The notes under the pieces: generated by a model
What the model was told of the DNA's origin: nothing
Database searches by the model: none
The model's input: only the letters and a program-made list of their open reading frames with translations
In this document: positions 2,634 to 24,933 of the stretch, piece after piece
How the letters are laid out: each line of letters starts with the position of its first letter
How positions within the stretch are numbered: position 1 is the stretch's first letter
Origin: Candidatus Zixiibacteriota bacterium
Lineage (GTDB): Bacteria > Zixibacteria > MSB-5A5 > GN15 > FEB-12
NCBI GenBank assembly: GCA_040752815.1
Contig: JBFMGC010000027.1
Location: 1 to 37,197, forward strand
Length of the DNA stretch: 37,197 nt
Direction: 5' to 3'
Program-made: the position numbers and the translations under genes

Positions 2634-3311
2634 ATGACTCTGAGGACGAACGCGAGAATCGCGGGCATCACGTTTCTGGGCTACATAGCCGCCGGACTCA
2701 CCAGTATGGCAGTTTACGGCCGGGCAGCGGCCGGAGACGGGATTTCCGAAAGGCTCGCGAGCATCGCCCAGCACGGGTCAGACATGGGCGTTGTCGTAGT
2801 GCTCGGACTGGCCCAAAGCTTCGCCGCTCTGACCCTTGCTGTTACGCTCTACGCTATCACGCGCGATCAGGACAGAGATCTGGCGATGCTGGGGATGATT
2901 AGTCGAGTCGTTGAGGGGGTAATGGGTGGCCTGTCGGTTTCTTCCACGCTGGCGCTGCAGTGGCTGGCGACTGCCGCCGGTCCGGATGCGCCCGACATCA
3001 CGGCTGGGCACGCGCTTGCCGCGTACCTCTTTAGAAACGAAATGGCTCTCTCCGCGACCTTCTTCGCCGCGGGGAGCACCTTCTTCGCCTGGCTCATGCT
3101 GCGCGGTCGCATGATCCCGGTCTCGCTCGCATGGCTGGGCGTGGTTGCGTCGGTTCTGTTAGTTATCGCCCTGCCCCTGCAGCTCGCAGGAGCCCTCCGG
3201 GGCCTGATAACACAGCTCATCTGGTTGCCGATGCTCCTGTTCGAGGTCCCGCTTGCGCTATGGCTGATAGTCAAGGGTGTTGCGGTTCCACGACCGAAGC
3301 AGGTTGTGTGA
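2634..3311 (+). CDS. DUF4386-family integral membrane protein
   Basis: A 225-residue, almost wholly hydrophobic protein with about six membrane segments (for example near residues 8-27, 47-70, 80-105 and 130-215). The sequence resembles DUF4386, a family of bacterial inner-membrane proteins without known function. The frame is open from 2403, but ATG 2634 is chosen because AAGGAG precedes it by 8 bases and because the part upstream is not hydrophobic and contains the palindromes listed separately. A central stretch rich in A, G and S (about 95-125) lies between membrane segments. No partner gene is nearby. Family assignment is from overall pattern; function unknown. Confidence 0.8.
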   Translation: MTLRTNARIAGITFLGYIAAGLTSMAVYGRAAAGDGISERLASIAQHGSDMGVVVVLGLAQSFAALTLAVTLYAITRDQDRDLAMLGMISRVVEGVMGGLSVSSTLALQWLATAAGPDAPDITAGHALAAYLFRNEMALSATFFAAGSTFFAWLMLRGRMIPVSLAWLGVVASVLLVIALPLQLAGALRGLITQLIWLPMLLFEVPLALWLIVKGVAVPRPKQVV

Positions 3312-3354
3312 TCAGGTAGGCGAGTTGATTGGCGGGCTCGTGGGCGGCAGTCCT

Positions 3355-3396
3355 GGTCTGCCCCTTCCGGATCCTTTTTCGATACACGGGCAGACC
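3355..3396. terminator. Hairpin downstream of the DUF4386 gene
   Basis: GGTCTGCCC (3355-3363) pairs perfectly with GGGCAGACC (3388-3396) around a 24-base loop that includes a TTTTT run. It may end DUF4386 transcription. Its right arm also serves as the outer left arm of the nested element at 3389-3608, so alternative foldings compete. Confidence 0.45.
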
Positions 3397-3608
3397 GGGA
3401 GAGGCTGTCTCATAAGCTGGAAAAGTTGCGGCAGGCCCTCTGTAGCGCTCGTCGAAAGACGGACGCGGACGGAGACCTGCCGCCGTAATTCTCTCATCTC
3501 CAATGGCGTCAGGTCACTGCCCTATTACTCCCGGTCCCCGGGAGTGGCGGGCTAAGGGCCTGACGCAACTCAAACCAAAACTTTTGGGACAGCCTCAGGA
3601 CGTCTGCC
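3389..3608. mobile_element. MITE-like non-coding element of nested inverted repeats
   Basis: The core is 3401-3596. Its left end (3401-3438) and right end (3556-3596) form an imperfect terminal inverted repeat of about 40 bp: GAGGCTGTC is identical at both tips, CA and AAG match further in, and the inner GTTGCG-x-CAGGCCC matches with one mismatch. Beyond the core, GGCAGAC (3389-3395) pairs with GTCTGCC (3602-3608) at equal distance. Inside are ACCTGCCGCC/GGCGTCAGGT (3475-3484/3505-3514, 9 of 10) and CTCCCGG/CCGGGAG (3528-3544). No transposase or other credible gene is present. Tips of the GAGGCTGTCxCAxAAG type resemble insertion sequence ends, so a non-autonomous element is a reasonable reading. 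No clear target duplication was found. A structured RNA is the alternative. Confidence 0.5.
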
Positions 3609-3677
3609 GCGCACGGAAAGAGGTGGGCCACCGACTGGCAGGTTCACGCCAAGGTGAGCAGGCGAAGCGGACCTGCT

Positions 3678-4886
3678 CTACCTCTTCCGCGGCTTGAGGC
3701 CCAAACCGGTTATTGCCGCGGGAAGCAGATGCTTGCGGTTCAGGATATGATAAACTATCGCCAGCACCACATACACCGCGGCGACCTCCATCCTGATTTT
3801 CGATACAACAAGTTGGGCCGTGAACAACACCACCAGCAATATACCGTCCATGCGGCTCAGTTTCAAATTGACCAGCACAGCGACGGCGAAGATCGACTGG
3901 GCGGCGGTCAGGTACAACTCGTGCTGCTGGAGGGTATCGAGCACGAACGGGCGGATCGCGCCACCCGAGATCGCGAACACGAGCGGGATCGTGCCGACCA
4001 GCAAGGTCCACTGGTTCACTTTCGAGGATATCAGTGCTTTGATGGCCGACTGTGCGCTGCCCCGCAGGGTCCAGGTGATCGCGATGATGAACTCGGGCGC
4101 CTCGGACGCGATCGGCGCCAGCCACTGCACGAGCAAAAACTCGCTCACCCCGAGCTGGTGCCCGGTCTCCACCAGTGACTCGGCGAACGGCTCGGCCACG
4201 AGAAAAATCGCGGCGCCGGACCATATGAAGAAGATCACCGTCATGATCCGCCGGGGCAGATCATTCATGTTGGCCAAAACCTTCACCGGCCCGACAAACT
4301 CCGGCTCGGTGACCTCCATCTGGGCAGCCCGCCGAGTGTAAAGCACGAAGAGAGTTACCAGGATGACCGTATCGATGAGATTGAGGCTGCCCTTGAGGGG
4401 AATGATGAACGAATAAAGTGTCGCCATGGCGAGATAGAAGATCTCGCAACGCTGGCTTTCGTCGAGGACGAGCTCTTTCTTTTTCCACGCCAGGATAAAG
4501 ACGAAAAGAATAACCGGCCAACCGACCCCGACCAGCAATCGGTTCGCGCCGGTCATGTTGGCAATGGCGTAATGCGCCTGGGTGGGATCGTGAGCCGACT
4601 TCCAGGTAAAGACAAAGTCGACAGCGTACTCCGGCAGAACGGCAATCAGCGCGAGCAGCGCCACCGCCAGTGATTCCGAGATGTCGATCTCGGCGGCTTC
4701 CGCGCCCCAGCTAAGTATAAACGCCGCGCCAAAGATACCCACGCCGAACACGAGCGCGCCGAGCCAGGGTGTCAGATGCGTGTGAGTATAACCGAAGTAC
4801 ATTCCCGGTATGGTCACCAGGAAGGCCAGATACAGGAGTATGTAGACGCCGGACTTTACTTCAAGCCGCTCGCGGGGTGCACTCAT
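3678..4886 (-). CDS. Sodium/calcium exchanger (CaCA) family membrane protein
   Basis: A 402-residue inner-membrane antiporter with about ten to eleven membrane segments. It carries the two alpha-repeats of the CaCA superfamily. The first, at about residues 58-95, has the GAEAAE motif and a conserved acidic LPEY. The second, at about 255-305, has ASEAPEF followed by a polar SSKVNQW stretch. The expected role is export of calcium, or another cation, in exchange for sodium or protons; ion choice cannot be read with certainty. The gene is last in the minus-strand run after nuoN, DUF502 and the EIIA-CBS gene, starting 25 bases after the EIIA-CBS stop codon, so it is likely co-transcribed with that regulator. 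The C-terminus is basic (LKPRKR) and cytosolic by the positive-inside rule. Confidence 0.88.
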   Translation of the reverse strand: MSAPRERLEVKSGVYILLYLAFLVTIPGMYFGYTHTHLTPWLGALVFGVGIFGAAFILSWGAEAAEIDISESLAVALLALIAVLPEYAVDFVFTWKSAHDPTQAHYAIANMTGANRLLVGVGWPVILFVFILAWKKKELVLDESQRCEIFYLAMATLYSFIIPLKGSLNLIDTVILVTLFVLYTRRAAQMEVTEPEFVGPVKVLANMNDLPRRIMTVIFFIWSGAAIFLVAEPFAESLVETGHQLGVSEFLLVQWLAPIASEAPEFIIAITWTLRGSAQSAIKALISSKVNQWTLLVGTIPLVFAISGGAIRPFVLDTLQQHELYLTAAQSIFAVAVLVNLKLSRMDGILLVVLFTAQLVVSKIRMEVAAVYVVLAIVYHILNRKHLLPAAITGLGLKPRKR

Positions 4887-16848: not shown

Positions 16849-18207
16849 CTACCCCAGCTTGCGGATTCTGAGGTAGAGGCAGACCGCTACGATAGTAATG
16901 AACAAGGTGGCCAGCGCCAGTCCTTTGCGACGAAAGAAATAGTTGTCGATCAGCGCTTTCGACCGGGCCAGGACCGTATCGGCTTTAGCGATTCCGGTGT
17001 CGGCCTTGCCCTTGAACTCGGCAGTTCCGAAAGCGTGGACAGCTGTGCGGGCTTTGATCAGAGCCTGGTCCACCTCACCGAGCATCAGTTCCACGTCGGT
17101 AGTGAGCATCCCTTTGGCGATTGCGTCATCGAGCACAGTCTTGGCTTGATCACGCGCGCTGACCAGCTTGTACAGACCGGTCGACATGGTATCAGCCACC
17201 ACGAATGCCCTCGTGCCGTCGTCAGCCGAATGGCAGTCGGCGCAGACCGCTCCCCCCGACGTCCCCACCATCGCGTCGTGTGGCTTCTCGATCCTGTGGT
17301 TGGAGTGGCAGGTTTCGCACATGGGGAAATCATTTTCCGCGAACGCCGTCTTGTGGGGCGATCTGTCGAAGAGTTCCATCTGAAAAACATGACAATTGCC
17401 GCATACCGCCGCCAGGGACTCGTGGCCGGGAGGCGCCGCCCCGTGATTGCTGTGGCAGTCGTTACACGCGGGCGCGCCCAAATCGTTCCGCTCGATCAGC
17501 GCCTTGCCGTGCACCGACTGCAGGTAATCGTCGAGCTGGGTGGTGGGAATGTTGTACTCGACCATGTAGGCCGGGTCGGCATGACACTTACCGCAGGTGG
17601 CCGGAACATTCACCGGGTGCGTGCTGGAGTGCGGCAGCTTGCCGTCGCCGATCTGATGCACCGCATGGCACGAGACACAGTTGGCTACCTTCGTGTCCCG
17701 GTTTTCGAACAGCCGCTTGCCGTGCACCGAAGTTTTGTACTTGTCGAGCTGGTCGGTCGGCAGCGACGGATTATGATTGCGCATGTAGGAGGCATTGGAG
17801 TGGCAGCGAGCGCAGAAATCAGGCACTTGCAGGTGATTCGGCACACCCCGGTAGCCGGCGCTCTTGCGCACATCGTCCATGTCGTCGAGCGACGGATCTC
17901 CACCGTGACAGTCGGCACAGCCCAGACCGTTCTGAAAGTGAATATCCCGCGTTATGAGATGTGCCGGGCCGTCTTCGTCCTCGATATCCTTATGGCAGGT
18001 GAGGCAGTTATCTTCGGCAGCGAAGGCTATCACAGGTGAAAACGCCAGGACGGCGAGTACCGCCGCAAACCTTCTCGCTGTGCGTGGTGGACGTCCTCGT
18101 CCACCACGAGGTCGAACCCAACCAAACTCGGCACATGAAGGCTCGCCGGCGGCGGGCCGGGCACGTGATGGTGTCGGGTGGATGGAAACCTCTTTCTGCT
18201 CACACAT
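16849..18207 (-). CDS. Nine-heme c-type cytochrome with C-terminal membrane anchor
   Basis: A 452-residue periplasmic electron carrier. Nine CxxCH heme-binding motifs are visible in order: CLTCH, CADCH, CARCH, CVSCH, CGKCH, CNDCH, CGNCH, CETCH, CADCH. Nearby conserved histidines (HITRDIHF-like and SVHGK segments, the latter twice) suit bis-histidine ligation. A long helical region without hemes follows, then a membrane helix close to the C-terminus. ATG 18207 has AGGAGG 7 bases upstream. The secretion signal (RRFAAVLAVLAFSPVIAFAA) begins only about 46 residues after this start, which is unusual, and the stretch before it contains the palindrome at 18083-18108. It sits 10 bases after cytochrome b, so it probably takes electrons from the Rieske/cytochrome b pair in place of cytochrome c1. 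NrfH/NapC-like roles are less likely because of the domain layout. Confidence 0.88.
   Translation of the reverse strand: MCEQKEVSIHPTPSRARPAAGEPSCAEFGWVRPRGGRGRPPRTARRFAAVLAVLAFSPVIAFAAEDNCLTCHKDIEDEDGPAHLITRDIHFQNGLGCADCHGGDPSLDDMDDVRKSAGYRGVPNHLQVPDFCARCHSNASYMRNHNPSLPTDQLDKYKTSVHGKRLFENRDTKVANCVSCHAVHQIGDGKLPHSSTHPVNVPATCGKCHADPAYMVEYNIPTTQLDDYLQSVHGKALIERNDLGAPACNDCHSNHGAAPPGHESLAAVCGNCHVFQMELFDRSPHKTAFAENDFPMCETCHSNHRIEKPHDAMVGTSGGAVCADCHSADDGTRAFVVADTMSTGLYKLVSARDQAKTVLDDAIAKGMLTTDVELMLGEVDQALIKARTAVHAFGTAEFKGKADTGIAKADTVLARSKALIDNYFFRRKGLALATLFITIVAVCLYLRIRKLG
18083..18108. repeat. Palindromic element inside the cytochrome c leader
   Basis: CGTGGTGGACG-TCCT-CGTCCACCACG is a perfect 11-bp inverted repeat with a 4-base loop. 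On the minus strand it encodes GGRGRPPR in frame, just before the secretion signal of the nine-heme cytochrome. Its shape and CCT-ending loop resemble the intergenic palindromes at 2424, 20391 and 24912. Confidence 0.6.
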
Positions 18208-24851: not shown

Positions 24852-24933
24852 GCGGTCACATCGTGACGCAGACGGCCTTCGGTCTGTGACCGCGCCGACG
24901 ATTGCCGTGCCCGGCAGATGCCCTCATCTGCCG
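24852..24933. repeat. Two palindromes between convergent lipoprotein genes
   Basis: GCGGTCACA (24852-24860) pairs with TGTGACCGC (24885-24893), and CGGCAGATG-CCCT-CATCTGCCG (24912-24933) is a perfect 9-bp hairpin. Both sit in the 144-base gap between stop codons of convergent genes. They could serve as two-way terminators, but T-tracts are missing; the second has the same CCT-ending loop as the elements at 2424 and 18083. Confidence 0.55.

Follow-up and report, generated by a model that had tools for sequence, protein, structure and literature searches.

The window—the whole analysed stretch of 37,197 nucleotides—contains an inverted-repeat element at 3401–3596, located between the 3′ ends of two convergent genes, namely a DUF4386 gene (ending at 3311, + strand) and a Na/Ca exchanger gene (ending at 3678, − strand). 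The initial annotation, made from the letters of the DNA, had described a gene-free element filling the gap between these genes. This holds: no convincing gene was found in the core, and the sole + strand open reading frame crossing it (3277–3555, 92 aa) is purely mechanical. The features of the region, as interpreted here, are the following (handles beginning with C, L and G denote contigs, loci and genomes).

3340..3364, + strand: second hairpin of the target repeat, empty and partly decayed (GTGGGCGGCAGTCCTGGTCTGCCCC); compare the two-hairpin units L110–L113 and L052
3388..3396, + strand: 5′ arm of the occupied target hairpin, GGGCAGACC; 59 empty GGCAGAC-N6-GTCTGCC copies in the same genome
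3397..3400, + strand: target duplication, copy 1, GGGA (loop of the target hairpin); 3/4 match with AGGA
3401..3596, no strand: MITE core, non-autonomous, IS1182-type, 196 bp; full copies at C77 and C2, flanks change at the boundary
3401..3416, + strand: left terminal inverted repeat, GAGGCTGTCTCATAAG; 15/16 positions pair with the right end
3439..3473, no strand: internal stem 1 (predicted fold, helix 4)
3474..3515, no strand: internal stem 2, ACCTGCCGCCGT...ATGGCGTCAGGT (predicted fold, helix 5)
3519..3552, no strand: internal stem 3, TATTACTCCCGG...CCGGGAGTGGCG (predicted fold, helix 6)
3581..3596, − strand: right terminal inverted repeat, GAGGCTGTCCCAAAAG (read inward); the longer form GAGGCTGTCCCAAAAGTTTTGGTT closely matches autonomous IS1182 ends
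3597..3600, + strand: target duplication, copy 2, AGGA; 3/4 match with GGGA
3601..3616, + strand: 3′ arm of the occupied target hairpin and tail, CGTCTGCCGCGCACGG; identical tail at empty hairpins and other filled sites

The 9-bp tips GAGGCTGTC of the core lie at 3401–3409 and 3588–3596, and a near-perfect inner block of the form GTTGCG(G/T)CAGGCCC is made up of GTTGCGGCAGGCCC (3425–3438) and GGGCCTGACGCAAC (about 3556–3569). Outer arms are present at 3389–3396 (GGCAGACC) and 3601–3608 (CGTCTGCC). All these parts were found where the initial annotation had put them; of the smaller internal stems, which it had counted as two, the predicted fold features three. The predicted folding energy of the core is −109.9 kcal/mol (z = −10.5 versus shuffled sequence), and the folding of both strands of 3380–3615, proposed earlier as a check, yielded a stable structure on each (z = −8.5 and −7.6 versus shuffled sequence). 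The inverted-repeat structure is far beyond chance. Being short, bounded by terminal inverted repeats with 15 of 16 end pairs, and free of a transposase gene, the 196-bp core has the build of a MITE.

A fold of this kind may also be read as a structured RNA or a regulatory element—a bidirectional terminator or an mRNA-end stabiliser—selected for its fold, and a large folded RNA or regulatory structure had been named from the outset as the alternative to a mobile element. The fold is very stable on both strands, the site lies between convergent gene ends, and two pairs are changed on both sides among the copies. However, the stability is about equal on both strands, as for any inverted repeat, there is no match in Rfam, and the covariation is barely above that of shuffled alignments (reached by 32 of 500). 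In addition, the element is multi-copy, carries target duplications and has transposase-bearing relatives, which leaves selection for an RNA fold very unlikely as its explanation; a secondary effect of the element on transcript ends could still exist.

Copy counts rest on searches of the genome to which the window belongs (G000; 3.19 Mb, 136 contigs). Full copies of the core occur at C77 (98% identical) and C2 (87%), and a diverged copy at C34. Six near-identical partial copies end at contig ends (C28, C60 twice, C47, C26 and C76), as is usual where an assembler meets a dispersed repeat; with left and right halves counted, the core subfamily would occupy at least six sites in this genome. The outer flanks of the full copies are unrelated; beyond the ends of the core the resemblance is lost, or the orientation toward the hairpin switches—the picture of multiple dispersed copies with different flanks that is typical of MITEs. 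A single copy genome-wide had been put forward as an argument against mobility, and the nucleotide search returned a multi-copy core instead. G000 contains 35 occurrences of the 12-bp tip GAGGCTGTCYCA, compared with 0 for the reversed control. The tip is abundant in some relatives as well (57 in G036, 9 in G001 of the same genus), with counts near background in others. A scan for tip plus arm over 84,980 species yielded 42 stretches; the contigs holding them nearly all bear the title Zixibacteria or Zixiibacteriota or belong to MAGs. The MITE subfamilies of G000 (L034, L036, L037, L048 and others) keep the layout of terminal inverted repeats plus hairpins ending GCGKCAGGTC/GACCTGMCGC, and their stem sequences vary widely.

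The arms GGCAGAC/GTCTGCC do not belong to the element; they form a separate, independently repeated target hairpin, split in two by the core. The motif GGCAGAC-N6-GTCTGCC is found empty 59 times in G000 (control, 0), often as inverted pairs, and 38 of 54 genomes from the family contain it. Of the nested picture drawn initially, the part that stands is that these arms flank the core; their assignment to the element falls with the empty hairpins. Short, dispersed, palindromic and often arranged in inverted pairs, the target hairpin itself resembles REP and BIME sequences. The occupied hairpin of the window and the hairpin at 3340–3364 together form the same two-hairpin unit that is seen elsewhere (L110–L113, L052). 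With the core removed, the window flanks align gaplessly with the unoccupied two-hairpin unit of L052 (86.8% over 68 bp), the neighboring hairpin of which holds a 34-bp element.

Paralogous empty sites of this kind are available because the GGCAGAC hairpin also occurs empty, and they carry the argument for insertion. An alignable orthologous empty site was not found: the relatives searched lack a close DUF4386 homologue, and the intergenic DNA on the exchanger side is too diverged. At the exchanger gene, element and hairpin are absent from the 19 relatives examined, save one stray tip. A larger MITE or a BIME-like repeat comprising the whole of 3389–3608, with GGCAGAC as its outermost inverted repeat, would agree with the presence of this motif outside the tips on both sides in most copies. 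Yet the hairpin is so often empty, unrelated hairpins hold the core as well, the core faces either way with respect to the hairpin unit and its flanks, and the 4 bp adjoining the core behave as a duplication, so that a single element including the arms is highly improbable.

The 34-bp micro-element GAGGCTGTCCCATAGGTTGATTTGGGACGGCCTC is a separate observation. It occurs in hairpin loops at G000:C6:42436–42469 (L033 1479–1512), with the perfect 4-bp duplication AGGA, and at C51:5451–5484 (L052 1479–1512), with the perfect 4-bp duplication TCCC. Its 34 bp equal the end of an IS1182 remnant at C21, C45 and C86, so that a fragment of an IS end appears to have been mobile on its own.

The order at filled sites is arm, 4 bp, element, 4 bp, arm, as seen at C34 (GGCAGACT/TCCC/element/TCCC/GGTCTGCC) and at C77 (GGCAGACG/TCCT/element/TCCT/GGTCTGCC). 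Over all loci, 36 complete short elements (140–260 bp, no more than one mismatch in either tip) were collected. The 4 bp on the two sides match at all four positions in 20 of the 36 and at three positions in a further 11, whereas random re-pairing of the oriented sides gave a mean of 8.1 identical pairs per 36 and a maximum of 16 in 10,000 trials. The target duplication expected of a MITE, and the 4-bp direct repeat of the IS1182 family, are thus present over the set; the window copy matches at 3/4, its mismatch of one base (GGGA/AGGA) being as expected of an old insertion, though imperfect. Palindromy was scored over 8 bp of flank per side at every offset combination from 0 to 8. It is highest, 0.84, at offsets 4 and 4 and about 0.1–0.4, roughly 25%, off register; some loci were fetched with a pattern requiring the GGCAGAC arm on one side, which biases the arm frequency and leaves the register and the other side unbiased. 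It follows that the element targets a hairpin whose loop measures 4 nt and that this loop becomes duplicated.

Other hairpins are hit as well, namely CCCACAG/CTTG/CTGTGGG, CCCAGGG/CAAG/CCCTGGG and TCGGGCG/ACCC/CGCCCGA, and structure rather than one sequence therefore seems to be the target. This preference is not absolute since the copy at L047 features a perfect duplication, TTTG, and lacks palindromic arms. In G036 (L146–L153), many related MITEs and IS1182 copies are located in CCCACAG or CCCAGGG hairpins with CTTG/CAAG loops.

Partners were sought with PF13751 in 61 genomes, followed by a search for tips beside the matches. L144 features tips at 1922 and 3457, a frame of 498 codons and the duplication TCCC, and lies inside the same GGCAGAC hairpin with the arm outside. 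L145 features tips at 658 and 2152 and 465 codons, with no target duplication; L146 and L148 are one-sided copies with a tip beside the transposase gene. The transposase genes of all four are complete, and their frames match DDE_Tnp_1_6 and/or DUF772 (PF13751/PF05598). NF033551, the NCBI model of IS1182, scored 348–388 bits in the three partners tested (cut-off 270)—a match that concerns the partner transposases, as the MITE itself encodes no protein. The right end of the window element, GAGGCTGTCCCAAAAGTTTTGGTT, is nearly equal to the end of L145, GAGGCTGTCCCATAAGTTTTGGTTG; the end of L144 is GAGGTTGTCCCATAAGTTTTGGTTG.

In G000, contig C76 ends in the N-terminal part of an IS1182 transposase, which starts immediately inward of a tip and lies beside a GGCAGAC arm; a C-terminal remnant lies at C21, likewise beside a GGCAGAC arm. 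No intact IS1182 transposase copy was seen in this genome, only these fragments; contig breaks perhaps hide one. Autonomous partners with matching ends are thus provided by L144 and L145 and, in G000, by fragments only. The lack of such a transposase in relatives had been named as a point against mobility, and the outcome speaks for mobility. The non-autonomous transposable element suggested initially is borne out by the multiple copies, the differing flanks, the target duplications and the transposase-bearing relatives with matching tips. An IS110-family element (PF02371, PF01548) lying between two tips in G000 (C6:28400; L032 1501–2960) was considered as the autonomous partner and rejected: it is inserted within a MITE copy, which itself lies in a palindrome with the duplication CAAT—a three-level nest.

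Mobilization by a REP-associated tyrosine transposase (RAYT), with the element as a REPIN-like unit, has in its favor three weak Y1_Tnp genes in G000 and the resemblance of the inverted hairpin pairs to BIMEs. Against it, the palindromes around these three genes differ in sequence, and 4-bp target duplications and long terminal inverted repeats enclosing a DDE transposase are not RAYT features; RAYT mobilization of the core is extremely improbable. A RAYT could have spread the target hairpin, not the core. As to the RAYT gene flanked by its own repeat that is looked for in REP/BIME systems, a GGCAGAC hairpin was found within about 1.5 kb of none of the three Y1_Tnp genes. Each of these RAYT-like genes is located near hairpins of its own—CCGCGGGGCG, GTCGAAACC and GGCAGGACC (L191 1258–1384, L192 1180–1875 and L193 383–430)—and their differences suggest several REP families in this genome.

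The preferred reading, held at a probability of about 0.93, is that the window carries a 196-bp IS1182-family MITE that was inserted into the 4-nt loop of a genome-wide repeated REP-like hairpin and moved by an IS1182-family transposase. Multiplicity, ends, transposase-bearing relatives, the 4-bp duplication and the hairpin target are established here. The transposase would act in trans on the MITE and would join the 3′ ends of the element to the two sides of the 4-nt loop in the GGCAGACC-NNNN-GGTCTGCC hairpin. Gap repair would then duplicate the loop only and leave one hairpin arm on each side, which would result in the nested palindrome of arm, duplication, terminal inverted repeat, internal stems, terminal inverted repeat, duplication and arm. 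The transposase may recognize an extruded cruciform rather than sequence alone, a reading that the varied arm sequences favor. A tentative generalization, given somewhat less than even odds, is that the IS1182-type transposases of this lineage select targets by structure, taking hairpins of whatever sequence that have a 4-nt loop and are extruded as a cruciform, joining at both sides of the loop and duplicating it.

The kind of element is largely known: MITEs of the IS1182 family bearing 4-bp repeats have been published, as has the targeting of palindromes by ISs of this family and by ISs that insert into REP sequences. In Methanosarcina acetivorans, IS1182-family MITEs related to ISMac2 are 160–169 bp long, occur in 14 and 7 copies and feature inverted repeats of 25–26 bp and, in one of the two, 4-bp direct repeats (PMC3852290). 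They resemble the present element in size, multiplicity, inverted repeats, the 4-bp repeats of the one and the IS1182 partner; they differ in host and sequence, and a hairpin-loop target is absent from the part of the description available. ISPse1 of the IS1182 family shares with the present element 16-bp inverted repeats and a 4-bp direct repeat but is an autonomous IS of 1653 bp, and the accessible part of its description gives no target structure (PMC3281130). Relevant literature on MITEs in Zixibacteria was not found among openly readable publications.

Some IS1182-family members are described as targeting palindromes, and IS1272 transposes by replacing a stem-loop with no target duplication; its targets are inverted repeats, in one case with 9-bp arms and a 4-bp interval (PMC5678879). 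The present element shares with IS1272 the family and the inverted-repeat targets. However, IS1272 removes the target stem-loop and makes no duplication, whereas here the arms are retained and the loop is duplicated; the site does not have the form of a stem-loop replacement. Loop insertion with loop duplication is drawn as a hypothetical alternative, pathway c, of the IS1272 model (PMC5678879). Several families, IS3 and IS110 among them, use REP hairpins as targets; ISPsy8, IS1397 and ISKpn1 (IS3 family) insert into REP or palindromic units, and ISPsy8 does so at the symmetry axis, duplicating 3 bp (PMC1525189). What these share with the present element is entry into a REP hairpin at its axis of symmetry and a short duplication; they differ by their transposase family and by being autonomous ISs, not MITEs, and the duplication here is 4 bp (PMC1525189).

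The least familiar part is loop insertion with loop duplication by an IS1182-type element, for which the openly readable literature holds the model for IS1272 only. Structural targeting, if true, would supply natural examples of this loop-duplicating pathway, which has been put forward for IS1272 only in the form of a model. The tens of natural sites at which an IS1182-type element targets 4-nt hairpin loops and keeps the arms make structure-dependent target choice testable, and they account for large nested palindromes in these genomes that might be misread as structured RNAs. The window has two more perfect palindromes whose loops measure 4 nt: CGGCAGATG-CCCT-CATCTGCCG at 24912–24933, which resembles a diverged copy of the target hairpin with nothing inserted, and CGTGGTGGACG-TCCT-CGTCCACCACG at 18083–18108.
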